From Phycisphaerales bacterium (GTDB lineage: Bacteria > Planctomycetota > Phycisphaerae > Sedimentisphaerales > Anaerobacaceae): DNA of 48,031 bases. Below the pieces are notes generated by a model. The model worked only from the letters and a program-made list of their open reading frames with translations. It was not told the origin of the DNA and did no database searches. Shown here in pieces: positions 30,622 through 47,592 of the stretch. The stretch lies in the NCBI GenBank assembly GCA_020346325.1, contig CP070782.1, positions 5,605,980-5,654,010 on the forward strand, written 5' to 3'. Each line of letters starts with the position of its first letter. Positions within the stretch are counted from its first letter, which is position 1. Made by a program: the position numbers and the translations under genes.

Positions 30622-31181
30622 AGGCGAAAGCCCTTACATCTCATCGGTCGCGCCAGACCGCCACATCCCGGTGCATCTGGCCCGCCTGGGCCGCATCAGT
30701 CTGGGACGCCCAACAACCGATAAGCGTAGTGAAACTCGGACCCTCGCAAATCTCACACGCCGAAAGCGGCAGGATTCAGAAGTACATCGCCAAACGGGGA
30801 CTCCGGCATGCTACCTCCACGCGCAATTCTCACCTCTCGTCGAGATCGGAGCGAATCGATGCCGCTGGCCTGCAGAAACCCGACCAATCGGCGCGCCCGT
30901 CCAGACGCGCCGGCAACGGCACATTCAAGAATAACTGCATTATAGGACCCCGCGCCAATGGCGCGCTGGTTGCCGAGACGACGACAAATCGACTCACGTC
31001 ATGCGCCGCACAAAGGCATCCTGGATGTGCCCCCAACGCAGGCAGTCCCTTGATCGCCATATTCTCATGGGTGGGGTTTTGCCGGAGATATCGCTCCACC
31101 GGCCCCCGGAAACGGCCGATATGCAGAAACTAAATGACTTTAGAGAAGAGCATTACGGCAACAACGTGTGAAAGGGGGGCA
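30622..31181. other. Intergenic region upstream of the TonB receptor gene
   Basis: 560 nt without a supportable gene. A perfect hairpin CGCGCC-AAT-GGCGCG lies at 30951-30965, not followed by T. A 6-bp inverted repeat AGCATT (31149-31154) / AATGCT (31181-31186) would enclose the ribosome site and pair with the proposed receptor start codon. No cobalamin riboswitch signature was found, and no convincing -35/-10 pair. Confidence 0.5.
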
Positions 31182-33248
31182 ATGCTGACCCAGCAGGCCA
31201 GCTTTCTGACTGATTCATCGACCGGAGCTCGGGAGGTCTTCATCCACCGCTTGGTGCGCGTGATGGCGCTGGCGGTGGTTTTCCTGGGAGTCCAGAGTGC
31301 GTGCGCGGCCGCTTCCGACGGCCAGGAGGGACTCTTCGATCTGTCTTTAGAAGAGTTGATGGAAGTCGAAATAGATACGGTCACCAGCGCCTCGAAGTAC
31401 AAACAGAAGGTCAGCGAGGCGCCCTCTTCAATCACCGTGATCACGGCTGACGAGATTCGCAAATACGGCTATCGCACTCTGGCCGAAGTCTTGCAGAGCG
31501 TCCCCGGCTTCTACCTCAACTACGACAGGAACTACCACTATCTCGGGACGCGGGGATTCCGCCGACCGGGCGACTACGATACCCGCATCCTTCTGCTCGT
31601 CGACGGCCATCGCACCAATGAGAACATCGGCGACAGCCCGGCCTTTGGCACTCATTTCCTTCTCGACGTCGACCTGATCGAGAGGGTCGAGATCATCCGC
31701 GGGCCAGGGTCCTCTCTCTATGGCAGCAACGCCTTTCTCGGTGTCATCAACGTCATCACCAAGACAGGGGGTCGTATCGGGGGACTCGAGCTTTCGGGAG
31801 CGGTGGCGAGTTTCGACACGACCAAGGGACGGATCACGTACGGAGAGACGTTTGACAACGGCCTGGAGGTACTCGCCTCCGCAACGCGGTACAACAGCGA
31901 CGGGCAACGGCTGTATTTCGCGGAATTCGACAGCCCTGACACGGCCAACGGGCTCGTCCGAAACGACGACGATCGTTTTGACAACCTCGTCGCCAACGTA
32001 CGGTGGGGAGACATGAGTCTCTTGTTTGCCCATACGGCCCGGGAGAAAGGGATTCCCACGGCCCCGTGGGACACCGTCTTCGGCGACCGCAGAACCAGAA
32101 GTTGGGATGATACCACGCTCGCCGGTCTGACCTACACCAAGGACTTATCGAAGGCGTGGACCGTCAAAGGCCGCCTGGCGTACGCGCACTACGACTACGA
32201 TGGCCACTGGGTGTACGACTATGCCGACCCAGGTGATCCCCCTGACATCGTCGTGAACAAGGACTACTGGAAGGGGCGCTGGTGGGAGGGCGAAGTGCAG
32301 ATGATCGGACAGCCGGTGGTCGGCCATACGCTGACGGCCGGCAGCGAGTTCCGTTACAACAGCTGCCAGGACCAGGCCAACTGGGATGAAGAGGTCTATC
32401 TGGACGACTCCCGACACAGCCACAACTGGGGCCTCTACATCCAGGACGAATTCAAGGTCTTTGACGAGACCACCGTCGTGGGCGGACTGCGCTACGACCG
32501 ACATGACACGTTCGGCGCAACGGCCAATCCGCGCGTGGCGGTGATCCAGAACCTCAGCGAGGATACCACGCTTAAGTTGCTCTATGGCAGGGCTTTCCGC
32601 GCGCCCAACGCCTACGAACTGTACTACCACGATGGCGAATATACCACCAAGGCGGCCCAAAACCTCGATCCCGAAACTATCGAGACCTATGAGGTGGTGC
32701 TGGAGCATGCCTTCACGCCGCATCTGAGCACGACGCTCAGCGGCTTCTACTATGTGATGGATGATCTGATCGACCAATACACGGATCCTGCCGACGGCCT
32801 GCTCGTCTTCAAGAATCTCGACGAGGTCAAAGCTCATGGCCTGGAGCTGGCCTTGAACGGGCGGTGGGACAACGGTCTTCGTGCGCGGACAGGCTATTCC
32901 TATGTCAATGCCGAAGATGACACTACTGATAGGACGCTGGTGAATTCGCCCAAGCACTTGGCGAAACTCAACCTGATCGTCCCGATCGTGGACGAGGCTC
33001 TCTTTGCGGGCCTCGACATCCAGTACAACAGCAGATCCAAGACCTTGGCCAGCAACCATGCCAGCGACTTCGTGCTGACGAACCTGACATTGACTTATAC
33101 AAGCCCCTCGAAACAACTGGAGCTCGCGGCGGGTGTGTACAACCTCTTCGATGTCGAGTACGACTACCCCGGCTTCGGCGAGCACGCGCAGGACGTGATC
33201 GAGCAGGATGGGCGAATGTTCCAAATCAAACTGACGTATCGCTTTTAG
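31182..33248 (+). CDS. TonB-dependent outer membrane receptor
   Basis: A gated 22-strand barrel for uptake or sensing of a ligand. A long N-terminus contains a signal helix (VMALAVVFLGVQSACAA). LSLEELMEVEIDTVTSASKY follows, a segment typical of receptors related to colicin I/vitamin B12 transporters. The plug domain has EAPSSITVITADEIRKYGYR, LAEVLQSVPGF, and IERVEIIRGPGSSLYGSNAF. The C-terminus ends in FQIKLTYRF, the terminal aromatic required for barrel insertion. I start at ATG 31182, preceded by AAAGGGGGG (688 residues); ATG 31134 gives 704. The ligand is not deducible. The position before yfiR-like and kinase genes suggests sensing rather than only transport. Confidence 0.92.
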   Translation: MLTQQASFLTDSSTGAREVFIHRLVRVMALAVVFLGVQSACAAASDGQEGLFDLSLEELMEVEIDTVTSASKYKQKVSEAPSSITVITADEIRKYGYRTLAEVLQSVPGFYLNYDRNYHYLGTRGFRRPGDYDTRILLLVDGHRTNENIGDSPAFGTHFLLDVDLIERVEIIRGPGSSLYGSNAFLGVINVITKTGGRIGGLELSGAVASFDTTKGRITYGETFDNGLEVLASATRYNSDGQRLYFAEFDSPDTANGLVRNDDDRFDNLVANVRWGDMSLLFAHTAREKGIPTAPWDTVFGDRRTRSWDDTTLAGLTYTKDLSKAWTVKGRLAYAHYDYDGHWVYDYADPGDPPDIVVNKDYWKGRWWEGEVQMIGQPVVGHTLTAGSEFRYNSCQDQANWDEEVYLDDSRHSHNWGLYIQDEFKVFDETTVVGGLRYDRHDTFGATANPRVAVIQNLSEDTTLKLLYGRAFRAPNAYELYYHDGEYTTKAAQNLDPETIETYEVVLEHAFTPHLSTTLSGFYYVMDDLIDQYTDPADGLLVFKNLDEVKAHGLELALNGRWDNGLRARTGYSYVNAEDDTTDRTLVNSPKHLAKLNLIVPIVDEALFAGLDIQYNSRSKTLASNHASDFVLTNLTLTYTSPSKQLELAAGVYNLFDVEYDYPGFGEHAQDVIEQDGRMFQIKLTYRF

Positions 33249-33333
33249 AGGATCGGGCCGGAAGGTACCACAATGAGTGCTGAACGAAATAGCATGAACT
33301 TCGAATTTGGACGGGACGGCGGGTAGACCGAGC

Positions 33334-33996
33334 ATGCGCCTCAGAACGCTTATTCTTTGCTCTCTGCTAGTGTTCGTATTGGTGGCGAACCTTTCGGCGA
33401 CGGTCTGCGCCGACCCGGCCACCGACCGAGAGTACCGGCTCAAAGCCGCCTTTCTTTGCAACTTCATGATGTTCGTCGAGGGAGAGCGATTCCGATGGGA
33501 AGCCGACAATGGAGAACCTTCCGACCCGAATCAACACCTGCAAATCGGCATTATCGGCAAGGCCCCCTTCGGCCAGGCGTTTGAACCGCTGAAAAACAAG
33601 AAGATCAAGAATCGTGTCGTGATCGTCAAATGGTTCAAAGGCTGGGCGGAACTGACCGACGCGGACGGCCGCCGTCCAGAGCAACACCCCCAAATCGAAG
33701 CGATCCGCCAGTGCCACGTGCTGTTCATCGGCGCTTCCGAGAAATCGCATTTGACGACCATTCTCGACCCAATTCGAACGCTCGGCATGTTGACCGTCGC
33801 AGACGCGCCGGGGTTCTTGGAGGCGGGGGGCATGATCAACTTCGTAATCGAGGACAAGAAGCTCCGTTTTGAGATCAACTTGGCGGCCACCAGGCGCGCC
33901 AAGCTACAGATCCGGTCCAAACTGCTGCGACTGGCCAGGCGCGTCACCACCCACGACGCCTTCAAAAGCGATGATGGTGAGGCCCATGGGACGTAA
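33334..33996 (+). CDS. YfiR-family (DUF4154) periplasmic protein
   Basis: A small exported protein of 220 residues: signal peptide MRLRTLILCSLLVFVLVANL, then the YfiR fold. Family marks are EYRLKAAFLCNFMMFVEGERF at the mature N-terminus, LQIGIIGKAPFGQAF, CHVLFIGASE near residue 138, and GMLTVADAPGFLEAGGMINF with FEINLAATRRAKLQIRSKLL at the end. In Pseudomonas, YfiR binds and restrains the periplasmic sensor of YfiN; reducing conditions or YfiB relieve it. Here the following gene is a histidine kinase with a periplasmic loop, so YfiR probably controls that kinase. It overlaps the next start by 11 nt and lies 85 nt after the receptor gene. Confidence 0.86.
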   Translation: MRLRTLILCSLLVFVLVANLSATVCADPATDREYRLKAAFLCNFMMFVEGERFRWEADNGEPSDPNQHLQIGIIGKAPFGQAFEPLKNKKIKNRVVIVKWFKGWAELTDADGRRPEQHPQIEAIRQCHVLFIGASEKSHLTTILDPIRTLGMLTVADAPGFLEAGGMINFVIEDKKLRFEINLAATRRAKLQIRSKLLRLARRVTTHDAFKSDDGEAHGT

Positions 33997-36193
33997 GCCA
34001 GGCAAAAACCCGATGAGCACGATGGTCGCTCCGTGGCTGCGGAACTGGTCGCTCAAGCACAAGCTGATCGCCGCCATTATGCTGACGTGTGTCGGCGCCC
34101 TCCTGCTGACGGGGGTGATCTTCACCGTCTGGGAATGGACCAGCCTGCGCCGCGCCATGATTCTGGACCTGTCCACCCATGCCGACATTCTGGCCGAAAA
34201 CTGCAAAGCGGCGATCGCATTCGAGGACGCCACCGACGCCAACGACATCCTCCGCACCGTCGACGCCGTCCCGGCTGTCCAGGTGGCTTGCGTCTACACC
34301 AAAGACGGCACCCGCTTCGCCACCTACGTCCGGGCGGAAACCACCGCGTCCATCCCCGATCCGAACGATCTGCCCAGGGGCCATACGTTCACGGGCAACC
34401 TCTTGACGTTGATCCGTCCGATTTCGCTTGATGGAGAGCAGATCGGAACCATCTGTCTCACCTCGAATCTGGACCCGCTGCGCATTCGACTCAAGCACGG
34501 GATCATTGCGATCCTGGGCATCCTCTGCATCTCGTCGCTGGGCGCCTATCTGGCGTCATCCCGGTTGCAGGGCATTATCTCCTCGCCCATTCTGTATCTG
34601 GCCGGCGTGGCGAACTTCGTCTCGGAGAAGCGACAATACGCCATCCGCGCCGAAAAGTATGGCGCCGACGAGGTCGGTCTGCTCATCGAAGCCTTCAACG
34701 AAATGCTCGAACAGATCCAGCAACGGGACTCGGCCTTGGTCAACGCCAACGAACAACTGGAGGAACGGGTCAGAGAACGTACCGCCGCGCTGAGCTCCAC
34801 CAATGAGAAGCTCACCCGCGAGATTGCCATTCGCAAGAAGGCCGAACAGGTTCTCAAGCAGCGGGCTGAACAGATCGTGCACCATCAGAGGACCCTCGTC
34901 AAACTGAGCAAACACGCCAACGACGACCTGATGGCCATCATCCGGAGCATGACGGAGGAAACCGCGGCCACCCTCTCGACGGCGCGCGTGGGCGTCTGGC
35001 TGCTCGCCGACGAAACGCGGGAACTGGTCTGCCGGGATCTCTTCAAACAGAAGGAAAACACCCACGAAGAAGGACCCCGGATGCGAGCGGCCGACTACCC
35101 TCATTACTTCCAGGCCATCGAGAGCAGCCGCATCGTGGCCGCGAACAATGCGGAAGAAGATGCCCGTACATCGGAACTGGCCGCATCGCACCTGAGACCG
35201 CTGGGCATCACGTCCCTGATAAATGTCTCCATTCAGCTCCAGGGTAGAATGCTCGGCGTCGTCTCCTGCGAACACATCGGCCAGCCCAGGGAGTGGACGC
35301 TCGAAGAGCAGGACTTCGCGGCGTCACTGGCGGATATGATCGCCTTACAAATAGAAGCCAACGAGCGCCGCAAAGCCGAACGCGCGCTGGCCCGGGTCAA
35401 CAAACACCTGGCCGATACGGTGCGCGAACTGCGACGGTCCAACAAGGAATTGCAGGACTTCGCCTATGTCACCGCACACGACCTCAAGGCGCCGCTCCGT
35501 GGTATCGGCACGCTGACCGACTGGATCGCCTCCGACTACGCCGACAAGTTTGACGCACAGGGCCAGGAACAACTGGGCTTGCTTAAGGGACGCGTCTCCC
35601 GCATGAGCGAGCTGATCGACGGCATCCTTCACTATTCGGAGATCGGCCGAACCAGCAAGTGCCGTGAATGGGTCGATCTCAACAAGCTGCTGCCGGAAGT
35701 CATCGCCCAACTGGTCCCTCCGGAAGATATGGAGATCACGATCGAAGACCCATTACCCGAGTTGGTCATTGAGAAGGTCCGGCTCATCCAGGTCTTCCAG
35801 AATCTGATCGGCAACGCCATCAAGTACATGGACAAACCGCAGGGACGTATTCGCATCAACTGCACGGGTGACGAGCACTTCTGGACTTTCAGCGTCAGCG
35901 ACAACGGTCCCGGCATCGACGAGAAGTACTTCGACAAGATCTTCCAGATGTTCCAGACCCTGACCCGCCGCGACGAATTGGAGAGCACCGGCATCGGTCT
36001 TTCCATGGTGAAGAAGATCGTCGAACTGCACGGCGGCACCGTCTGGGTCGAATCGCAGGTAGGAGAAGGAACTACGTTCTCCTTCACGCTGCCCAAACAG
36101 GAAGTGGCCCCCTTGGAGGCGGAAACACAGACACACACGACCGATGGAGAGACGCGCGAATCCACTGACGCACCCTGGAGATCGCCCGAGTGA
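33986..36193 (+). CDS. Sensor histidine kinase 1: periplasmic CHASE8-like sensor, HAMP, GAF, HisKA, HATPase
   Basis: 735 residues. TM1 is about residues 24-47. A periplasmic region (about 48-170) has the pattern ILAENCKAAIAFEDATDAND, like the CHASE8 sensor of YfiN-type proteins. TM2 (about 171-192) is followed by HAMP (to about 245), a coiled coil, and a GAF domain (about 305-460). The dimerisation box FAYVTAHDLKAPLRG carries the phospho-acceptor His498. The ATPase domain has NLIGNAIKYMD, DNGPGID and TGIGLSMVKKIVELHGG. No receiver domain is attached. ATG 33986 overlaps the yfiR stop. GTGA couples it to the following transporter gene. Likely output: phosphotransfer to an unlinked regulator. 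Confidence 0.9.
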   Translation: MGRKPGKNPMSTMVAPWLRNWSLKHKLIAAIMLTCVGALLLTGVIFTVWEWTSLRRAMILDLSTHADILAENCKAAIAFEDATDANDILRTVDAVPAVQVACVYTKDGTRFATYVRAETTASIPDPNDLPRGHTFTGNLLTLIRPISLDGEQIGTICLTSNLDPLRIRLKHGIIAILGILCISSLGAYLASSRLQGIISSPILYLAGVANFVSEKRQYAIRAEKYGADEVGLLIEAFNEMLEQIQQRDSALVNANEQLEERVRERTAALSSTNEKLTREIAIRKKAEQVLKQRAEQIVHHQRTLVKLSKHANDDLMAIIRSMTEETAATLSTARVGVWLLADETRELVCRDLFKQKENTHEEGPRMRAADYPHYFQAIESSRIVAANNAEEDARTSELAASHLRPLGITSLINVSIQLQGRMLGVVSCEHIGQPREWTLEEQDFAASLADMIALQIEANERRKAERALARVNKHLADTVRELRRSNKELQDFAYVTAHDLKAPLRGIGTLTDWIASDYADKFDAQGQEQLGLLKGRVSRMSELIDGILHYSEIGRTSKCREWVDLNKLLPEVIAQLVPPEDMEITIEDPLPELVIEKVRLIQVFQNLIGNAIKYMDKPQGRIRINCTGDEHFWTFSVSDNGPGIDEKYFDKIFQMFQTLTRRDELESTGIGLSMVKKIVELHGGTVWVESQVGEGTTFSFTLPKQEVAPLEAETQTHTTDGETRESTDAPWRSPE

Positions 36194-37221
36194 GAAAGTC
36201 CCCAGACGACAAGATTGGGCTACGAGCGAGTGGCCCCGGGCTGCTGCTGGCAGCACTGCTCGGCGCGGCGGCTTACGGCCTGACCCGGATATGGCACACG
36301 CGGGTCCTGAATCCGCTGGTTCTGGCCTTGGCCGTGGGCGTCGCCCTGCGCACCGCTGTCGGACACCACACCACCCTCAACAGCGGGTTCACCGCCGCCC
36401 CGCTGCTCTGCATTCCCATCGGCATCACGTTCTATGCCGTCAAGAACCTCAACTTTGCCGCCTACGCCGAGGTGCATCCGACCTCGATGATGCTGGCCGC
36501 TCTAATCGTGTTCGTCTACTTCGCCACCATTCTCATCCTCGGTCGCCTGCTGGGCCAGCCAGACCGGATCACCTATCTGACCGCCGCCGGTTCCGCGATC
36601 TGCGGGGCCTCCGCCATCGCCATCACCTCGCCGGCCGTGGACGCAGATTCCAACGACATCTCCGTGTCCCTGTTGGCTGTCACGACCGTCGCGATAGTGG
36701 CCTTGTTCATACTGCTGCCCTTTGTCGCCACCACCGTGGGGATGACCGATCAGACCTATGGCGTGCTCTCCGGATCAGTCCTGCAAATGACCGGCTGCGT
36801 CAAGGCGGCAGTGATGAATCTCCCCTTCCTCAGTCGGCAGATCACCGACAAGGACCTGGTGTCGCTGGCCCTGTCGGTCAAGGCCGCCCGTTACCTGGGG
36901 CTCTTGATCGCCATACCGCTTTTCGCCAGCCTCACCCAAAAACGATTCTACCTCCCCTGGACCCTGTGGCTCTTCCTGCGTGCAGGCCTGCTGGGGACCT
37001 GGATTTCCGTGAACCACGGGGATTTCTATAGCGCTACGCTGATTCCAACGGTCAAGCCGCTGTACGGCCTCTCCTGGTCGATCGCCATGACCGCCATCGG
37101 ACTCAACGCGGACGTCCGGCAACTACTCAGCAGCAACGGCGCCAAGGCGCTCATTATGGCTCTCGGCGGATGCAGTACCGCTATCGTGACCTTCTTCATC
37201 GGATCGATGATTCTGGGATGA
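36190..37221 (+). CDS. YeiH-family putative sulfate exporter (UPF0324)
   Basis: A polytopic inner-membrane protein of 343 residues with about ten hydrophobic segments. Family landmarks are NPLVLALAVGVALR, LLCIPIGITFYAVKNLNFA, TAAGSAICGASAIAITSPA with the conserved GSAICGASA motif, the central FVATTVGMTDQTYGVLSGS, and the C-terminal AMTAIGLNADVRQL. YeiH proteins are described as putative sulfate or sulfonate exporters, but transport has been shown for few, so the substrate is uncertain. GTG 36190 overlaps the kinase stop by 4 nt (GTGA), so it is translated together with a sensor kinase and may be part of the same response. The next kinase gene begins 24 nt later. Confidence 0.83.
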   Translation: MRKSPDDKIGLRASGPGLLLAALLGAAAYGLTRIWHTRVLNPLVLALAVGVALRTAVGHHTTLNSGFTAAPLLCIPIGITFYAVKNLNFAAYAEVHPTSMMLAALIVFVYFATILILGRLLGQPDRITYLTAAGSAICGASAIAITSPAVDADSNDISVSLLAVTTVAIVALFILLPFVATTVGMTDQTYGVLSGSVLQMTGCVKAAVMNLPFLSRQITDKDLVSLALSVKAARYLGLLIAIPLFASLTQKRFYLPWTLWLFLRAGLLGTWISVNHGDFYSATLIPTVKPLYGLSWSIAMTAIGLNADVRQLLSSNGAKALIMALGGCSTAIVTFFIGSMILG

Positions 37222-37245: not shown

Positions 37246-39669
37246 ATGGCTCGAGTGAAAGAACCGCCGAAATCCAGTTTGCGGAACAACGCCATGGTCG
37301 CGTTCTTCCTGACGATTATCCTTTTGGGAATCTCGATCACGGCCATGTCCCATCATATCCTGCGTCGGGCGTTGCACGACGGCAACCTGTCGGCCGAGAG
37401 TGTCCAGCGCATCGGCCAGCAGGTGACACAAATGTTGACGGGAGCGACGATTGCCGGCACGCTGGTGGCCATTGCGATCGCCACGCTGCTCTCGCGGCGG
37501 ATCAGCGAACCGCTGCGTCGCCTCCTGGCGGGGGCGGCGGAGATCGGGGCCGGGCATCTCGACACCCACCTGGATATCTCCGGCGACGACGAACTCGGGC
37601 AGTTAGCCGCCGCCTTCAATGATATGGCCGAGAAACTCAAGCAGTCACACGACCATCTCGAAGCCACGGTCGCAGAGCGCACGGCCGAGTTGACCCAGAG
37701 GAATCAGGAATTGCAGACGGAGATGGCCGAACGCCGGCGCACGGAGGAACAATTGCGGCGCTCCGAAGAGCGGTTCACCATCATGGCCGATTCCGCCCAG
37801 GATGCCATCATGATGATGGACCCGGCCGGGCACGTCACGTTCTACAACAAGACGGCCCAGAGCATGTTCGGGTGGACCGCCGCCGAAGCGATCGGCAAAG
37901 ACCTGCATTCCCTGATCGCCCCACCGACGCTTCGCCCGGCGTCTCGCGAGGGTCTGGCGCGTTTCCGGCACTCCGGAGAAGGAGCCGCCGTCGGCAAGAC
38001 GCTCGAACTGACGGCCTTGCGCAAGAACGGAACAGAATTTCCCATCGAGATTTCACTCGCAGGGGTCAAGCTGAATCAGGAATGGCATGCGATCGGCATT
38101 GTACGCGATATCACCGCACGCAAGCGGAGTGAAGAGGCGCTGCGCGAGAGTGAGCAACGGTCACAGGACATCCTGAACTCTATTCTGGCCGGCGTGCTCA
38201 TCATCGATCCCGAAACTCAGCGCATTCTCGACGTCAATGAATCGGCCGCCAAACTGGTGGGCCGGTCCAAAGCCGAGATGATCGGGCAACTGTGTCACGA
38301 ATTCGTCTGCCCCATCAAGTGCGGCAAGTGCCCCGTCACCGATCTCGGACAGACGCTGGATGAATCCGAGGGGGTCCTGCTGAAAGCAGACGGAGAAAGC
38401 CTTCCCATCATCAAGAGCGTCACCGACGCGACCTTCCAGGGACGCCGATGTCTGCTCGAGAGTTTCGTCCCCATCGTGCAGCAGAAGCAGGCTGAAGAGA
38501 AACTCAAGGAATCACTCTCTCTGCTCCAAGCGACTCTGGAATCCACCGCCGACGGCATTCTCGTCACCGACACGACCGGACAATACAAGAACTTCAACAA
38601 TCAGTTCAAAGAACTCTGGCACCTGCCGGATCGCGCCCTGGAATGCTTGGATAGAGATGAGGCCCTTGCCATCGCCCTCGAGCAGTTAACGGACCCGGAA
38701 TCATTCCGCGCCGAGTTCATGGCGCTACGCGGCCAGCCCGAGCGACAGAGCCAAGGCCTGCTCCATCGGAAAGACGGCAGCGTCGTCGAGTACTGCTCGA
38801 AACCGCAGTACGTGACGGATGAAATCGTCGGACGCGTTCTGAGCTTTCGGGACATCACGGAGAAGTACCATGCCCAGCAGGGTCAGGAAAGACTCTTGCG
38901 CCGGGTGGCGGAGATCAACGAGGAATTGACGCATTTCGCCTATGTCGTCTCTCACGATCTCAAGGCCCCACTGCGTGGCATTAAACTGCTCACTGAGTGG
39001 CTGTGCACCGACTATGGCGACCAGTTGGGGGACGAGGCGCGGGAGAATCTCGACCTGCTCCAGAACCGCGTCGACCGTATGCACAACCTCATCGAAGGTG
39101 TGCTTCAGTACTCGCGGGTCGGGCGCATTGAGGAGGACCGGATCGAAGTGGATTTGAATGCGTTGCTTCCCGAGGTCATTGACGCGATCGCGCCGCCCGA
39201 ACACGTGACCATCACGGTTGAAGGAACGCTGCCTCACATTGAGTGCGAACCGACGCGGATCAGCCAGGTCTTCCAAAACCTGCTGACCAATGCCGTGAAG
39301 TATATGGACAAACCCGTCGGTGAGATTAGCGTGGCCTGCACCGAAGAGGCAGGGGCCTGGAGGTTCAGCATTACCGACAACGGTCCGGGCATCGAAGCGC
39401 GGTACTTCGACCGCATCTTCAAGATCTTCCAGACGCTCAGACCGCGCGACGAATACGAAAGCACAGGAGTAGGGCTGACCTTGGTCAAGAAAATCGTCGA
39501 AACCTACGGCGGAAGGATATGGGTCGAATCCGAGGTGGGGAAGGGAAGCACCTTCTTCTTCACCTTTCCCAAGCGACACGTTGAGTCCCAGAACGACGCG
39601 ACACCAACCGACATCGCGCTTCACAACGAACGCGTCGAGGAGACAGTTGTGACTTCGTACGAACAGTGA
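37246..39669 (+). CDS. Sensor histidine kinase 2: two membrane helices, HAMP, three PAS, HisKA, HATPase
   Basis: 807 residues. TM1 about 16-34 and TM2 about 63-82 enclose only a short periplasmic loop (about 28 residues). HAMP 83-137 and a coiled coil lead into PAS1 (about 170-290), PAS2 (about 305-415) and PAS3 (about 425-550). PAS2 carries the cluster Cys350, Cys355, Cys359, Cys362 in LCHEFVCPIKCGKCPVTD. The kinase core has SHDLKAPLRG with His570, NLLTNAVKYMDKP, DNGPGIE and TGVGLTLVKKIVETYGG. It contains no receiver domain. The core is closely related to the kinases on either side, and PAS1 is almost the same as a PAS of kinase 3. GAGGA lies 10 nt before ATG 37246. Confidence 0.9.
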   Translation: MARVKEPPKSSLRNNAMVAFFLTIILLGISITAMSHHILRRALHDGNLSAESVQRIGQQVTQMLTGATIAGTLVAIAIATLLSRRISEPLRRLLAGAAEIGAGHLDTHLDISGDDELGQLAAAFNDMAEKLKQSHDHLEATVAERTAELTQRNQELQTEMAERRRTEEQLRRSEERFTIMADSAQDAIMMMDPAGHVTFYNKTAQSMFGWTAAEAIGKDLHSLIAPPTLRPASREGLARFRHSGEGAAVGKTLELTALRKNGTEFPIEISLAGVKLNQEWHAIGIVRDITARKRSEEALRESEQRSQDILNSILAGVLIIDPETQRILDVNESAAKLVGRSKAEMIGQLCHEFVCPIKCGKCPVTDLGQTLDESEGVLLKADGESLPIIKSVTDATFQGRRCLLESFVPIVQQKQAEEKLKESLSLLQATLESTADGILVTDTTGQYKNFNNQFKELWHLPDRALECLDRDEALAIALEQLTDPESFRAEFMALRGQPERQSQGLLHRKDGSVVEYCSKPQYVTDEIVGRVLSFRDITEKYHAQQGQERLLRRVAEINEELTHFAYVVSHDLKAPLRGIKLLTEWLCTDYGDQLGDEARENLDLLQNRVDRMHNLIEGVLQYSRVGRIEEDRIEVDLNALLPEVIDAIAPPEHVTITVEGTLPHIECEPTRISQVFQNLLTNAVKYMDKPVGEISVACTEEAGAWRFSITDNGPGIEARYFDRIFKIFQTLRPRDEYESTGVGLTLVKKIVETYGGRIWVESEVGKGSTFFFTFPKRHVESQNDATPTDIALHNERVEETVVTSYEQ

Positions 39670-39694
39670 GACCATCAGCTGAGGTGGATTTCTC

Positions 39695-42055
39695 ATGACA
39701 GGACGAACCCAACCAGCACGGGGCATCGCAGACCGGGCAGGCCAATCGCCAGCTGATCTCCTTTCGGGATTCGCCGATGCCGTGGCGATGCCGGTGGTGC
39801 TGTTGACTGCCAACGCTCGTATTCGGCACGCCAACGCTGCCTTCATACAGACCCTGGATATCGCCGCGGAACATTACCTGCACAAGAAGTTCCCACACCG
39901 CTGGCTGATGCATCCGCAGAAAGCGCTGGCACAACTTCGCGAGATGCTCCACCGCGCCGTCCAAATCGGAGCGAATCCGGAGCCGGCGTACCTGTCCTTG
40001 CGTTCGTCGACCGGCTCGGAGATTCCTACTGAGGCCCACGTCCGTCCCCTGCCAAACCTCGGCCAAGGCAGCGACGGCCTGATCGTCGTAACGTTTAGGA
40101 ACACGGGGCAACTCGAGACCCCGCCATCGGCAGGCCAAGCGGAGGGAGACGGCGGCGGCAATTCCCTCCGCAACAAATTGAAACGTTCCGAAGAACGGTT
40201 TCGACTCCTGTTTGAATACGCCCCGGACGGATACTACCTGTGTGATTTGAACGGCCGGTTTGTCGACGGCAACAGGGCCGCTGAGAACATTGTGGGATAC
40301 CCGCGGGAAGAGCTCATCGGCAAGAGCTTCCTGAAACTGAACCTGCTGCCCAAGAGTCAGCTCACCAGAGCGGCCCGGGCACTGCTCCAGAATGCCGCTG
40401 GCGAACCTACGGGGCCTGATGAATTCACGCTGCATCGCAAGGACGGGTCGCAGGTCACCGTCGAGATTCACACCTATCCCGTCAGAATCCAAGGCCAGCT
40501 CCTCGTGCTCGGGATCGCCCGTGATATCACCGAGCGCAAGCGCGTCGAGGAGCAATTGCGCCGCTCGGAAGAGCGTTTCTCCGTCATGGCCGACTCGGCC
40601 CAGGATGCGATCATGATGATGGATGCACAGGGCCGCGTCACGTTCTACAACAAGACGGCTCAAACCATGTTCGGCTGGACCGCGCCGGAGGTCCTCGGTA
40701 AAGACCTGCACAGCTTGGTCATGCCGGAAAGATATCGCGACACCTACTTGAGAGGTCTGGCGCATTTCCGACACACCGGCCAGGGATCTGCGGTCGGCAA
40801 AATACTCGAACTGACGGCTCTGCGCAAAGACGGTACGGAGTTTCCCATCGAGATCTCGTTGGCGGGCGTTGAACTGAACGATGAATGGCACGCGATCGGT
40901 ATCATCCGAGACATCACCGAGCGTCAGCAGGCCCAAGAGGCTATCCTGAAAGAGAAAGCGTTCTGCGACTCGGTGATCAATAGCATGCCGGGCGTGTTCT
41001 ACATGCTGGACGAAGACGGACAACACGTCCGGTGGAACAAGAATCTTGAGCGCGTCACTGGGTATTCGAGCGACGAGATCGCTCACATCCATCCCGTGGA
41101 TTTGTTCGAAGGTCCGGACCGGCAACACATCACCGAGGCGATGGCGACGGTGTTCGCCAAAGGGCAAGCAACCGCCGAAGCCGATTTGGTGTCGAAGAGC
41201 GGCCGGAAGACCCCGTATTTCCTCACCGGGGTGAGGGTCGAGAGGGACGGCAAGCTCTATCTCATCGGTCTGGGAATCGACATCACCGAACGCCGAAAGG
41301 CCCAAGCCATTCTGGAGAAGTTGAATGCCGACCTGGAAGCGAGCATCCAGGAGTTGGACCGATCCAACCGAGAGCTGCGCGACTTCGCGCACATCACGGC
41401 CCACGACCTCAAGGCCCCGCTGCGCGGCATCGCGACGATGGCCGACTGGCTCGACCAGGACTGCGGCGAACAGATCGGTCCGGAAGGCCGGGAGAATCTG
41501 CATTTGCTCCGCAGCCGCGTGGACCGTATGGGGCACCTGATCAACGGCATCCTGCGCTATTCGGAAATCGGGCACCGTGACCAAGCTGTTGAGATCGTCG
41601 ATGCGCACGCCCTGGTGCAAGAGGTGATCGAGCAGATCGCCCCGCCGAACCATATCGAAATCCAGATCGAAGGGACGCTCCCATCCGTGGAAGCCGAACG
41701 AACGCGCCTCACGCAGGTCTTCCAGAATCTCATTGGCAATGCAGTCATGTACATCGACAAGCCGCAAGGCCAGGTGCGCATCAGCGCCCGCGACGACGGT
41801 GAATTCTGGGAATTCCGCGTCACCGACAATGGCCCCGGCATTGAGCCCCAGCACTTCGGCCGCATCTTCGAAATGTTCCAGACACTCTCGTCCTCCGACC
41901 ACAGTGAGAGCACGGGGCTCGGCCTGGCGACGGTGAAGAAGATCGTTGACCTGTACGGCGGTCGCGTTTGGATCGAGTCGGAAATAGGTCACGGCAGCAC
42001 CTTCATCTTCACGCTGCCCAAGCACCCGAAGCACAAAGCCCGGAAACAGGAGTGA
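39695..42055 (+). CDS. Sensor histidine kinase 3: soluble, four PAS domains, HisKA, HATPase
   Basis: 786 residues without membrane helices, so a cytoplasmic sensor. PAS domains lie at about 22-130, 165-285, 290-410 and 420-540. Each of the last three ends in a DITER-type PAC boundary (IARDITERKR, IIRDITERQQ, LGIDITERRK). The kinase core has ITAHDLKAPLRGIATMADWL with His570, NLIGNAVMYIDKPQG, DNGPGIE and TGLGLATVKKIVDLYGG. GAGGTGG lies 7 nt before ATG 39695. It ends the cluster, 26 nt after kinase 2, and converges on the AraC-type regulator gene. With no receiver protein nearby, the three kinases may form mixed dimers or feed one remote regulator. Confidence 0.9.
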   Translation: MTGRTQPARGIADRAGQSPADLLSGFADAVAMPVVLLTANARIRHANAAFIQTLDIAAEHYLHKKFPHRWLMHPQKALAQLREMLHRAVQIGANPEPAYLSLRSSTGSEIPTEAHVRPLPNLGQGSDGLIVVTFRNTGQLETPPSAGQAEGDGGGNSLRNKLKRSEERFRLLFEYAPDGYYLCDLNGRFVDGNRAAENIVGYPREELIGKSFLKLNLLPKSQLTRAARALLQNAAGEPTGPDEFTLHRKDGSQVTVEIHTYPVRIQGQLLVLGIARDITERKRVEEQLRRSEERFSVMADSAQDAIMMMDAQGRVTFYNKTAQTMFGWTAPEVLGKDLHSLVMPERYRDTYLRGLAHFRHTGQGSAVGKILELTALRKDGTEFPIEISLAGVELNDEWHAIGIIRDITERQQAQEAILKEKAFCDSVINSMPGVFYMLDEDGQHVRWNKNLERVTGYSSDEIAHIHPVDLFEGPDRQHITEAMATVFAKGQATAEADLVSKSGRKTPYFLTGVRVERDGKLYLIGLGIDITERRKAQAILEKLNADLEASIQELDRSNRELRDFAHITAHDLKAPLRGIATMADWLDQDCGEQIGPEGRENLHLLRSRVDRMGHLINGILRYSEIGHRDQAVEIVDAHALVQEVIEQIAPPNHIEIQIEGTLPSVEAERTRLTQVFQNLIGNAVMYIDKPQGQVRISARDDGEFWEFRVTDNGPGIEPQHFGRIFEMFQTLSSSDHSESTGLGLATVKKIVDLYGGRVWIESEIGHGSTFIFTLPKHPKHKARKQE

Positions 42056-42114: not shown

Positions 42115-43413
42115 TCATGGGCGCTCCCCTGGGAGCCCGCTCCGGCGGTTCTGGACTCTAAACTGCCGTGGCGTCATGCCGACCACCGCCTTGAACGTTC
42201 GTGTGAAGTAACTCTGATTGTTGTACCCCGTCTCGAAACAGATCTCCGTGCAACTCTGATCTGTGCCCAGCAGCAGCGCCTTGGCCCGCTCGATCCGCAC
42301 GCTCGTAACGTACTCGATAATCGTAATCCCCATCTGTTCCTTGAAGAGGTGCGCCAGGCGGGATGCGCTCAGATGGGACGCTCGGGCGATGTCAGCCAGC
42401 GTCATCGGTTTGTCGTAGTTGGCATCGATGTAGTTGATGGCCGGGCGAATCTGACTCATTTTCCGCCCGTCCTGGGAGGCATACACCAGTTCAAGAAAAT
42501 CGTTCAAGGCCATGCTGATCCACGCACACAGATCTTCCTGGTTGTCGATTCCCATGACCTTGTTGACAAACGTGAGATTCTTCTCCAGCATCGTCTCGAC
42601 GTTGACGCCGCCCTCAACTGCCGCGCGACTCAGCACGCTGAGCAGTTCCAGCAGCCGGACCTTGAGGATGCCCAGATCGCCGATATCCTTGAAGAGGATT
42701 GTACCCAGGATGGAATTGAGGATCTCTTTGGCCCCGGTCCGGTCCCTGATCTTGACCTTCTGCAACAGGGCCCGCTCGCTCTTGAGGGGATATTGCCACT
42801 CGGCCCCGAGTTTCTTGTGCTGCTGGATGAATTCGCCGATCTCCGACTGCTGTCGGGAGCGCTGTCGCCGCCAGCGAATCACCCGCGCGTCGAATCCGCC
42901 CACCTCATACAACAAATCGAACAGAAACTCAGCCGCGTTATGAATCTGCCGACCGCGTATCACCGGCAGATTGAGCAAGGCGGCGACGGCCGCCTCCGGG
43001 CCGGCCTCCAGATCGCGCAGCCGCCTTTCAACATCGCGGACCGGGATCGGCGTCACCGGCTCCCACAGACACTTTCCGAAGAACATCCCCCCGTAAACGC
43101 GGTCGGTATCCACTACCGGCACACAGACGAGAACGATGCCCGCATGGCAGATCGTGATGAAGGACTGCCCCGTCTCGGCGGCAATCTCGACCGCCCGCTT
43201 GCGTTCGGCGGCGCACCGGTCGCCGCCGAGAGGGTCGGCTTGCACGCGGACGCAGAATCCCGGTCGGCAGTCCGCACTGCACAGCGGTGGCACGGCCTGC
43301 CCATCCCGGCCCGTGGCCTCCAGGGCCAGTTGGAAGTGCTCGCGAAACGCCCGCTCGATCGCCGCGAACTTCGTCTCCGTCAGGAGCTGCGTCAATCCCA
43401 TATCGTCAGTCAT
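42115..43413 (-). CDS. AraC-family regulator with PocR ligand-sensing domain
   Basis: 432 residues. Residues about 10-180 form a PocR domain: LCSADCRPGFCVRVQADPLGGDRC with its cysteine set, ITICHAGIVLVCVPVV, and YGGMFFGKCLW. PocR domains sense small hydrocarbon derivatives such as 1,2-propanediol in Salmonella, though ligands vary. A helical linker follows. Residues about 325-425 contain two helix-turn-helix motifs of AraC type: MTLADIARASHLSASRLAHL and CFETGYNNQSYFTRTFKAVV, then GMTPRQFR. It probably activates a nearby promoter on ligand binding. The secreted LamG protein gene is divergent, 630 nt away, and is the natural candidate target. A palindrome overlapping a TATAAT box upstream may be an autoregulatory site. 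Confidence 0.9.
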   Translation of the reverse strand: MTDDMGLTQLLTETKFAAIERAFREHFQLALEATGRDGQAVPPLCSADCRPGFCVRVQADPLGGDRCAAERKRAVEIAAETGQSFITICHAGIVLVCVPVVDTDRVYGGMFFGKCLWEPVTPIPVRDVERRLRDLEAGPEAAVAALLNLPVIRGRQIHNAAEFLFDLLYEVGGFDARVIRWRRQRSRQQSEIGEFIQQHKKLGAEWQYPLKSERALLQKVKIRDRTGAKEILNSILGTILFKDIGDLGILKVRLLELLSVLSRAAVEGGVNVETMLEKNLTFVNKVMGIDNQEDLCAWISMALNDFLELVYASQDGRKMSQIRPAINYIDANYDKPMTLADIARASHLSASRLAHLFKEQMGITIIEYVTSVRIERAKALLLGTDQSCTEICFETGYNNQSYFTRTFKAVVGMTPRQFRVQNRRSGLPGERP

Positions 43414-43882: not shown

Positions 43883-44046
43883 ACGTTTTTGGAAGCGCCT
43901 CAACACCGCTCGGCAGCAACTTTGCAGAACATCTACCTTCAACGAGCAGGAAATGCGCACGCCGAAGGCCATGTTAAGACCGTGTATGATGCGCTATGCG
44001 CAGGAGAAGCAAACCGCAACGTCTTTCCCTGACAAGGAGGTGCGTC

Positions 44047-47000
44047 ATGTGTAGAAAATGGATTTATCTGGCATGTGCTTTTGCCCTTCTGGGCCTGCTT
44101 CCAGCGAGTGTGACCCATGCCGCTGATGAAAGTCTTGTCGGCTGGTGGAAGCTGGATGAGACGTCCGGGTTCGTCGCGCACGACTCCAGTGGCTGCGGCA
44201 ACCACGGCATGCTCCACGGCGACCCGCAATGGACAGGCCGTGGCCTGGAATTCGACGGTGACGGTGACTACGTCGACTGTGGAGACGGTCCGAGCTTGAA
44301 CATTAGCGGTTCGGTCACGATCACCGCTTGGATCAGGCTGGACGGTCCGGCCGGTGACCGCAAGATCGCCGGCAACCAGGACGGGATCACCGGCGGGTAC
44401 AAGTTTGGTATCTATGGGGATCGACTCGAATTTGAGATCCGCACGGCCGACAACGTCGCGATCCTGAACCGGAGCGTTGCCGGAGGCATGGTCTTGGAGC
44501 CCGGCATGTATCATCACGTGGCGGGCGTCTATTCCGAGGGTGACTCCATCCGGACGTACGTCGATGGCGTTCTGGACAGGGAACTGTCAACAGCGGAGCT
44601 TCTTGGCACTTCAACAGGGACGTTCAAGCTGGGCCGTGAGCCCTTCAGTGACGCGTATTCCTGGCTCGGTCTCATGGAAGATGTCAGGGTCTACGATACG
44701 GCTCTGGATCAAGATGAGATCCAACAGCTGCTCGAGCCCGGTGATGAGCAGGAATTCTTCGAAGAGTATCCAGCCTGGAACATGCCCGAACTGGCGGTGA
44801 CAGATCTCACCGTGCAGCCGGAGCGAGTTGATCCGGGCGATCGAGTTGTATTGCGCGCCACCGTCTCAGCCATCGGAACCGGAAACACACAATCCGCCAC
44901 GCTTGCGTTCTTGGTCGATGGCGTGGAGATCGACCGCGTTTCGGTTGAACCGCTGGTCGCGGGAGCAGAGCAAGAGCTGCGGACGACCTGGCTGGCAGAG
45001 GAATCTGGCCTCCACCACGTGCTTGCGCAACTCGAACTCAGCGCGGGCACCTTCGACCGGGGGTTCGAGAACAACGCTCGGACGGGCACGGCGCGCGTGT
45101 CCGGCGCCCGAGACCCTGTCCCGGAACTGGAAGTTGGTGATATCGGCTTCGACGCGATGCAACTGATCGCTGGCGAATCGTACGTGGTACCGGTGACCAT
45201 TCGCAATCCCGGCCTTGTTGACATCTGGAACGTCCCGGTGATGATCTACGTCGATGGCGAACTGATGGGCGATGGCGTAGTCGAGTACCTGCCGCCAGGA
45301 GAACAGCAGGAACTGCGGTTCCTGTGGGAGGCGGTCACTCCGGGCGAGCACACCGTCGCCGTTGAAATGATCCTGCCGGATGAATTCCCGGACTATCTCG
45401 CGCAAGCCGTGAAAGGTTGGCACGTCGTGATCGCCGACACGACCGTCACATATGATCTGGCCATGAAGCATAAGTGGGCGTCTTTGGGACCGCGGGAACT
45501 CGATAACGGCGATGTCGGCCGCATCACATGCTTTGCTATTGATCCGACCGCCCCCTCTGTCATGTACGCCGGTGGGTGGGGCCGAGATGGGAGTATACAT
45601 GCGGCACCCGGCGTGTGGAAGACCACCAACGGAGGGCAAAACTGGCTTCCTGTCGGGGACAAGCTTCCCTCCATGATGATCTCCTCAGTGGCCGTTGATC
45701 CGCAGACAACGAACAACATCTACGCCGGTACTCCATTCAACGGGATCTTCAAGTCCACGGACGGCGGCAGCACGTGGGACCTGTTCGCTGGCCCGCAGAT
45801 CACGGGCAACTATGTAACAGAGCTGATTGTTCGTTCTGAAGCGGCGCCATCGGACCCCAGAGTTCTGATCTATGCCGCAACGCAAAAGGGTGTGCTACGC
45901 TACAAAGGCAATGATCCCGCGGCGCTAACGAGTCTGACTTCTGACTGGGACAATATCAAGACCGGGGTCATTACCGATCTCGCGGTGCATCCCATCGCCA
46001 GATCGACTGTCTTTGCGAGCGTGGAAAACGAGGGTCTGTATCGAACCGAAAAGGGCATCACGGCACGGGACGAGCCGACTTCCGGGGTCCACGACTGGAC
46101 GAAGACAGGGGCTGGCCTGCCTACCATCAGTGGTTGGAACGGGTTGACGATGGACATCTTCCGATCTAATCCAGCCTACATGTACGCCGGCGTGAGCCAC
46201 CCCAGATCCGGCATTCACTTCGCCATCTACCGCTCCAAGGATTGGGGCAATACGTTTGAGCTGGTGAAGGAATATGCCAACAAGGAACTCCCCGGGCGCG
46301 GGGACGGTGGCATCTACAACCCCTTCATTCGCGTCCATCCCACACTCGTCAACATGGTGTATTTCGGAGGCATAGACCTGTTCAAGTGGAGCGCCTACAG
46401 CCCCCCGCCGGGCAAGACGTCATGGACGTACAAGGTAAACGCGCGATTCGACCTGAAAGCGCTTGAGTTCCTTCCGCCGGGCTCGCCCGAAGTGTACTAC
46501 CTCGCGTGTGATCAGGGGATGTTCCGCTACACGCCGAGCACGACGCCGACGAAGCACTACCTGGACAGTCAGCAGTGTGGGCTGTCCGGCGATACCTATC
46601 AGACGCGCAATTACAACCTACGTGTCACCGAGTTTTACGACGTCGATGTCGCAACGTCTTCCTTTCCCCTGATCATTGGAGGGACACAGGATACCGGCAC
46701 CGTTCTGTACGACGGTAGTCCGGATTGGCGATACATCCGCGGCGGTGATGGCTATTACTCCCCGATCGCACCTTCCGACAGCAGCGTCATGTACACCCAG
46801 CATCAGGGATTGGTCAGCACCTGCCGATCCGGTGACGGCGGCGGCACCTGGCAATGTGACGTCGCTGCGAACAAAGGCCTGCCGCAGGACGCAGAGGGCA
46901 GGCTGCTTTCCAATGGGTACATTACCGTTGACCCCCATTACCCGAACACCGTCCTGGCCGCTTGTGCGTCAGGTGATACGGCGAAAGGGGGCGAGGTCTA

Positions 47001-47592
47001 CGCAACGACCGACGCTCACCTTGGACAGAATTGCACATGGACGGCAAGAGGCCCATTCGGGACGACCGTCAAAGGCAGCGTCACCCGCGTGGTCATTCAG
47101 CCCGTCACCACACACTGGTTTGCGGGCACGAGCAAGGGGCAGATCTGGTATACCTCCGCCAAGATAAGAGGAACCTGGAATCAGATGGACGCCCACCCGG
47201 ACCAGGCGACCGTGATCAACATGGCGTTTTCGCCCAAGGACCCTCACGTATTGTACGTACTGTATTGGGGGGGAGACCCGTACACACGCGTTCAGCGATT
47301 CGAGTGGACACTTGGCGGAGGATGGAACGGTTCCTGGATGACAGACAACCTGGATGTCGCAACGGACCCGCGCGTGATCTGCGGCGATGCTCACAGATCC
47401 GACGTAGCCTACGTGGGCACTGACCACGGGATCTTTCGCTGGGACGGCACTCAGCCCACCTACGCCAGTTGGAAAGCGTATAACGACGGTTTCCCGCTGA
47501 CGACTGTAGTGGATCTGAAGGTCGGCCCTGACGAGACGCTGTATGCTGCCACGAAGGGTCGCGGTGTCTGGGGGGTCCTAACCGGCCCTTGA
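44047..47592 (+). CDS. Large secreted protein: LamG-like lectin fold, two CARDB domains, Asp-box beta-propeller
   Basis: 1181 residues, starting at ATG 44047 after a perfect AAGGAGGT. A signal peptide (LACAFALLGLLPASVTHAAD) is followed by a concanavalin/LamG domain (about 30-235; LVGWWKLDETSGFVAHDSSG and VTITAWIRLDGPAGDRKIAG). Two CARDB-type domains come next (about 245-350 and 355-465; AVTDLTVQPERVDPGDRVVL). About 700 residues of propeller follow, with sialidase-like Asp-boxes such as IFKSTDGGSTWDLF and VWKTTNGGQNWLPV. The propeller resembles BNR/sortilin-type and GH74-type proteins; catalytic residues cannot be assigned by eye. No dockerin or PEP-CTERM anchor is visible. It is likely a carbohydrate- or cell-surface-binding protein, or an enzyme, secreted to the envelope or medium. 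Confidence 0.85.
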   Translation: MCRKWIYLACAFALLGLLPASVTHAADESLVGWWKLDETSGFVAHDSSGCGNHGMLHGDPQWTGRGLEFDGDGDYVDCGDGPSLNISGSVTITAWIRLDGPAGDRKIAGNQDGITGGYKFGIYGDRLEFEIRTADNVAILNRSVAGGMVLEPGMYHHVAGVYSEGDSIRTYVDGVLDRELSTAELLGTSTGTFKLGREPFSDAYSWLGLMEDVRVYDTALDQDEIQQLLEPGDEQEFFEEYPAWNMPELAVTDLTVQPERVDPGDRVVLRATVSAIGTGNTQSATLAFLVDGVEIDRVSVEPLVAGAEQELRTTWLAEESGLHHVLAQLELSAGTFDRGFENNARTGTARVSGARDPVPELEVGDIGFDAMQLIAGESYVVPVTIRNPGLVDIWNVPVMIYVDGELMGDGVVEYLPPGEQQELRFLWEAVTPGEHTVAVEMILPDEFPDYLAQAVKGWHVVIADTTVTYDLAMKHKWASLGPRELDNGDVGRITCFAIDPTAPSVMYAGGWGRDGSIHAAPGVWKTTNGGQNWLPVGDKLPSMMISSVAVDPQTTNNIYAGTPFNGIFKSTDGGSTWDLFAGPQITGNYVTELIVRSEAAPSDPRVLIYAATQKGVLRYKGNDPAALTSLTSDWDNIKTGVITDLAVHPIARSTVFASVENEGLYRTEKGITARDEPTSGVHDWTKTGAGLPTISGWNGLTMDIFRSNPAYMYAGVSHPRSGIHFAIYRSKDWGNTFELVKEYANKELPGRGDGGIYNPFIRVHPTLVNMVYFGGIDLFKWSAYSPPPGKTSWTYKVNARFDLKALEFLPPGSPEVYYLACDQGMFRYTPSTTPTKHYLDSQQCGLSGDTYQTRNYNLRVTEFYDVDVATSSFPLIIGGTQDTGTVLYDGSPDWRYIRGGDGYYSPIAPSDSSVMYTQHQGLVSTCRSGDGGGTWQCDVAANKGLPQDAEGRLLSNGYITVDPHYPNTVLAACASGDTAKGGEVYATTDAHLGQNCTWTARGPFGTTVKGSVTRVVIQPVTTHWFAGTSKGQIWYTSAKIRGTWNQMDAHPDQATVINMAFSPKDPHVLYVLYWGGDPYTRVQRFEWTLGGGWNGSWMTDNLDVATDPRVICGDAHRSDVAYVGTDHGIFRWDGTQPTYASWKAYNDGFPLTTVVDLKVGPDETLYAATKGRGVWGVLTGP

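Follow-up and report, generated by a model that had tools for sequence, protein, structure and literature searches.

YfiR is known as the periplasmic inhibitor of YfiN, and AAVVF on YfiN and V160/F162/L183 on YfiR are the proposed contact between the two proteins (Malone et al. 2012, PMC3375315). In a Phycisphaerales bacterium, a yfiR-like gene lies between the gene of a TonB-dependent receptor and that of a histidine kinase. What do a receptor in the outer membrane and a kinase in the inner membrane have to do with YfiR, and with each other? We addressed this question in the window, that is, the whole stretch of 48,031 nucleotides analyzed here, and in related loci of other genomes.

All genes of the cluster are located on the + strand. 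The TonB-dependent receptor is encoded at 31182..33248 (Pfam Plug, E 1e-22; barrel, E 4e-50) and consists of a signal peptide, a pre-TonB-box motif, the TonB box, the plug and the barrel. Its longest open reading frame begins at 31134, and the best start is ATG 31182, which is preceded by the purine-rich AAAGGGGGG. The YfiR-like periplasmic protein (DUF4154; PF13689, E 5e-36), which has an N-terminal signal peptide, is encoded at 33334..33996 (ATG 33334, stop 33994-33996). The sensor histidine kinase follows at 33986..36193 (ATG 33986, stop 36191-36193), so that the two genes overlap by exactly 11 nt. The kinase is composed of TM1, CHASE8, TM2, HAMP (E 5e-6), GAF, HisKA (HDLKAPL) and HATPase_c. 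A sequence-only reading had proposed this order of genes and domains, and the open reading frames and Pfam matches agree with it; the periplasmic loop of the kinase is a true CHASE8 domain (34154..34459; PF17152, E 7e-18). As had also been noted, GGDEF was found by Pfam neither in the kinase, which has HisKA and HATPase_c instead, nor elsewhere in the cluster.

A YeiH-like membrane protein (36190..37221; PF03601, E 2.5e-39) overlaps the kinase by 4 nt. It is followed, according to Pfam, by a second histidine kinase with HAMP, three PAS domains, HisKA and HATPase_c (37246..39669, after a gap of 24 nt) and by a third with PAS repeats, HisKA and HATPase_c (39695..42055, after a gap of 25 nt). Because the gaps are small or the genes overlap throughout, all on the + strand, the genes from the receptor to the third kinase probably form one operon. 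A receiver domain is absent from all three kinases, and the cluster contains no response regulator. The kinases at 37246-42055 share a similar HDLKAPLRGI core and run in the same direction. On the - strand, a PocR-domain AraC-type regulator (42115-43413; PocR, E 3e-16; HTH_18, E 3e-25) faces the kinase cluster. Positions 43996-47592 encode a large protein that has laminin-G, CARDB and sortilin-like repeats and is unrelated to the receptor-YfiR-kinase module. The YeiH-like exporter had been suggested as an effector of the kinase. A homologue was present in none of about 320 related loci, and we rejected this role because the gene is not conserved there; it is a local neighbour outside the conserved module.

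The neighbourhood of receptor and yfiR is not a matter of chance, because the 6.5-Mb host genome has one DUF4154 gene and only two Plug-containing receptors, one of which is encoded immediately before the single yfiR. The arrangement is also found far beyond this genome. DUF4154 is carried by 46 of 392 Planctomycetota genomes, and a CHASE8-HAMP gene lies directly downstream on the same strand for 50 of 59 planctomycete DUF4154 genes, confirming that the yfiR-kinase adjacency is kept in relatives. A scan of named genomes revealed a like arrangement in Acidobacteriota, Verrucomicrobiota, Nitrospirota, Myxococcota, Thermodesulfobacteriota, Omnitrophota, Poribacteria, Armatimonadota, Lentisphaerota, Bacteroidota, Ignavibacteriota and others. 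At least a dozen bacterial phyla have the trio of receptor, yfiR and kinase.

We classified 195 yfiR loci from Planctomycetota, the named set and Pseudomonadota; the output was a kinase at 154, an MCP at 5, GGDEF at 8 and other or none at 28, and a TonB receptor was nearby at 146, although these counts are not unbiased frequencies because the loci were partly drawn by score. Among the 154 yfiR-kinase loci, 35 had no receptor nearby. A YfiB-like OmpA gene occurred at 4 of the 195 loci, all of which had GGDEF and no TonB receptor. YfiB and the TonB receptor thus behave as if they were alternatives. Some genomes contain more than one receptor per kinase. At one locus (L110, G352:C1:3941500-3957500), three receptor-yfiR pairs stand in tandem before one CHASE8 kinase. 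Three genomes of the window's order (G157, G209 and G261) have several receptors with the motif described below (3 to 6 listed per genome) and one yfiR-kinase pair without an adjacent receptor. In one pseudomonadotal genome (G503), seven DUF4154 genes and eight receptors of the family were observed, and several receptor-yfiR pairs there have no adjacent CHASE8 gene. An apparent receptor-YfiR fusion at another locus (L074) reflects a stretch of X with a frameshift and was discarded as an artefact.

Residues of the proposed YfiR-YfiN contact are conserved on both sides. The Phe of the AAVVF-type site in CHASE8 was kept in 118 of 122 domains whose gene adjoins yfiR, compared with 6 of 16 elsewhere (p 1e-8). 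The window kinase reads AAIAF at this site (34208..34222, + strand), the counterpart of A66-F70 of YfiN. The other CHASE8-HAMP kinase of the host genome (L118, G000:C1:4475963-4476637) has no yfiR nearby, has lost the contact Phe (GCREGLISQD) and has receiver domains. On the YfiR side, the equivalents of F162, N165 and L183 are conserved. Equivalents of C145 and C152 were found in 4/4 canonical YfiRs, as against 5/188 and 0/188, respectively, of the others, and the window YfiR has neither Cys. Redox sensing through a YfiR disulfide was considered and rejected, as these Cys residues are absent. We also modelled YfiR and CHASE8 as one chain with AlphaFold, using an in-frame relative (L140) that was read through the yfiR stop as a modelling device. 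The domains folded well (pLDDT 93), and the pTM of 0.62 came with no confident interface in this chain. The modelled YfiR matched P. aeruginosa YfiR (TM 0.81), and the modelled CHASE8 resembled PAS-like sensors such as CitA.

How does this locus relate to known systems? YfiBNR (the TpbB system of Pseudomonas aeruginosa) and HmsCDE of Yersinia have the same YfiR/DUF4154 protein, a CHASE8-HAMP partner bearing AAxxF and a third partner in the outer membrane. Unlike them, the window has a histidine kinase rather than GGDEF and a TonB receptor rather than the OmpA-like lipoprotein YfiB, and the C145-C152 disulfide is absent; no OmpA-like (YfiB-type) gene was found in the cluster or among the scanned neighbours. 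Kinase, HPT, MCP and GGDEF-EAL outputs have been described beside yfiR in distant bacteria, and an ancient modular core was proposed (PMC3375315). These YfiR-YfiN[PAS/HAMP] modules share the core and the kinase output with the window, with the contact residues conserved. NCBIfam 20.0 models the same three kinds of gene: NF053590 (TOL_0244 receptor), NF053591 (TOL_0243 YfiR-like) and NF053592 (HK_near_YfiR_like). The window kinase passes the cut-off of NF053592 (206 bits, cut-off 194), whereas the window YfiR falls under that of NF053591 (YfiR_like_TOL0243; 111.6 bits, cut-off 125) and the receptor under that of NF053590 (164 bits, cut-off 645). The exchange of kinase for cyclase is not new, because it was published in 2012 (PMC3375315) and is modelled in NCBIfam; the locus belongs to a kind that is known but has been little studied. 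In contrast, TonB has 0 occurrences in that paper, which has no receptor partner or receptor motif, and we found no paper in the open-licence literature that links YfiR to a TonB receptor. What we did not find described in this literature is the receptor side, with its motif and its coupling to yfiR at the level of genomes.

The sequence-only reading regarded the system as rewired from YfiN. Kinase- and receptor-type YfiRs predominate across phyla, and the YfiB-type GGDEF YfiRs, which have the C145-C152 cysteine pair in common, form one clade (support 98) on a long branch among the kinase-type YfiRs of Pseudomonadota. As GGDEF/YfiB-type YfiRs make up one small clade, the direction implied by "rewired" is probably backwards. 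The kinase/receptor form would be the widespread one and YfiBNR derived, although this order is suggestive only because the YfiR tree was midpoint-rooted.

We then turn to the receptor. Between the signal peptide and the TonB box, yfiR-adjacent receptors of two plug subfamilies carry a motif with the consensus DLSLEELMNVEVTSVSK. It was called with a leave-one-out PSSM, with the 99.9 percentile of shuffles as the threshold. In the window receptor, the motif is DLSLEELMEVEI (31338..31373, + strand), a proposed YfiR contact that scores 36.7 against a threshold of 9.7. Of 89 yfiR-linked receptors, 86 had the motif (DLSLEELMxVEV), as against 4 of 47 receptors that lack this linkage and come from genomes of the same set (p 5e-27). 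The four unlinked receptors with the motif all belong to two genomes (G359 and G057) in which no receptor adjoins the yfiR-kinase locus.

The coupling holds at the level of genomes. A receptor match including the motif was found in 39 of 46 Planctomycetota genomes with yfiR and in 5 of 346 without it; stratified by family, the numbers were 32/39 and 1/113 (16 informative families, p 3e-14). Of the yfiR-less exceptions that were re-read at the sequence level, three (G345, G088 and G195) had no good motif and a fourth (G239) had a weak one only. This fourth genome, which has no DUF4154, carries the weak variant EMTAEELFFMEV in a receptor whose neighbours are a kinase and a weak CHASE8-HAMP match (L341). 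Among 249 Pseudomonadota genomes, receptors with the motif were found in 49 of 60 with yfiR and in 3 of 189 without. The motif is looser in this phylum, with variants such as EMDFKELAQIRL, and 12 of 31 linked receptors were below the threshold. The receptor tree shows only about 4 changes of the motif, with 3 independent pairs in agreement (p 0.25). It therefore appears to be largely a marker of a receptor family. What is observed is a joint presence and absence of this receptor family and yfiR across genomes; because the motif partly marks a family, it is no more than a candidate docking site for YfiR. As had been suggested, the receptor is very likely the outer-membrane input of the system, judging from the linkage of the motif and its co-occurrence with yfiR across genomes. 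FecA/FpvA-type TonB receptors signal across the envelope, as the window receptor would. Unlike that type, the window receptor has no STN domain (Pfam, up to E 0.1), and no gene for a FecR-like anti-sigma or an ECF sigma factor was found among the scanned neighbours.

We consider it likely that the three genes form a transenvelope module, in which the TonB receptor gives the input, YfiR acts as a periplasmic adaptor and the CHASE8-HAMP kinase is the output in the inner membrane. The gene order, the domains, the conservation across phyla, the joint occurrence of yfiR and motif receptors in genomes and the conservation of the proposed contact residues on both YfiR and CHASE8 are observed. The binding and the sign of regulation are inferred, and YfiR-YfiN genetics and the YfiB-YfiR structure offer a precedent (PMC3375315, PMC4655355, PMC4887326). 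YfiR would bind the PAS-like CHASE8 domain through the patch used on YfiN and keep the kinase in a single signalling state. Once the receptor is occupied by its presumed ligand or engaged by TonB, its N-terminal DLSLEELM segment beside the TonB box would capture YfiR in the manner of YfiB of P. aeruginosa. CHASE8 would then relax, HAMP would transmit the change, and the kinase would phosphorylate a response regulator encoded elsewhere, the putative output of the module.

A broader form of this reading is more tentative, and we regard it as somewhat less probable than its negation. In this form, the short DLSLEELMxVEVTSVSK motif, at the N-terminus and facing the periplasm in dedicated receptors, would dock YfiR and thereby signal to CHASE8 kinases, less often to MCPs or cyclases, as a widespread and unreported type of TonB-receptor signalling. 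A single YfiR-kinase pair would, in some genomes, serve several unlinked motif receptors. YfiBNR would have arisen late, as a special case, when YfiB took the place of the receptor.

Could YfiR respond to the imported solute itself? In this unlikely alternative, the receptor imports a ligand into the periplasm that binds in a pocket of YfiR like that of substrate-binding proteins, and YfiR then switches CHASE8 with no contact between receptor and YfiR. Such a solute-binding co-sensor would explain the linkage to the receptor without docking, and the modelled YfiR of the relative does resemble substrate-binding proteins of R. marinus (TM 0.53-0.55). For P. aeruginosa YfiR, weak binding of vitamin B6 and L-Trp is reported in the YfiR pocket that accommodates F57 of YfiB, but the affinities given are only millimolar (PMC4887326). 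A co-sensor also leaves unexplained why a periplasmic-side motif is conserved in two receptor subfamilies. Genes for receptors often stand beside those of the regulators that control them, and a receptor is missing near some yfiR-kinase pairs, so the kinase might simply control the receptor gene, with YfiR as its independent envelope or redox sensor and no signal from the receptor; we consider this quite improbable in view of the motif receptors located elsewhere in genomes with unlinked pairs (G057, G359, G157, G209 and G261), the tandem receptor-yfiR pairs before one kinase and the lack of the YfiBNR redox disulfide (C152 equivalent in none of 188).

A transenvelope module of this kind would matter for how YfiR and TonB receptors are viewed. 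YfiBNR is a model biofilm switch, yet most of the sampled YfiRs adjoin a TonB receptor and a kinase, not YfiB and a cyclase. The module can be tested directly through the motif and the residues of the two contact points, and the motif would offer a sequence rule to predict which TonB receptors signal. Should the receptor feed YfiR, TonB receptors would have another means of signalling beside the STN/anti-sigma route. The trio of receptor, YfiR and kinase looks like a widespread way to report receptor activity inward, of which YfiBNR seems to be one special version.
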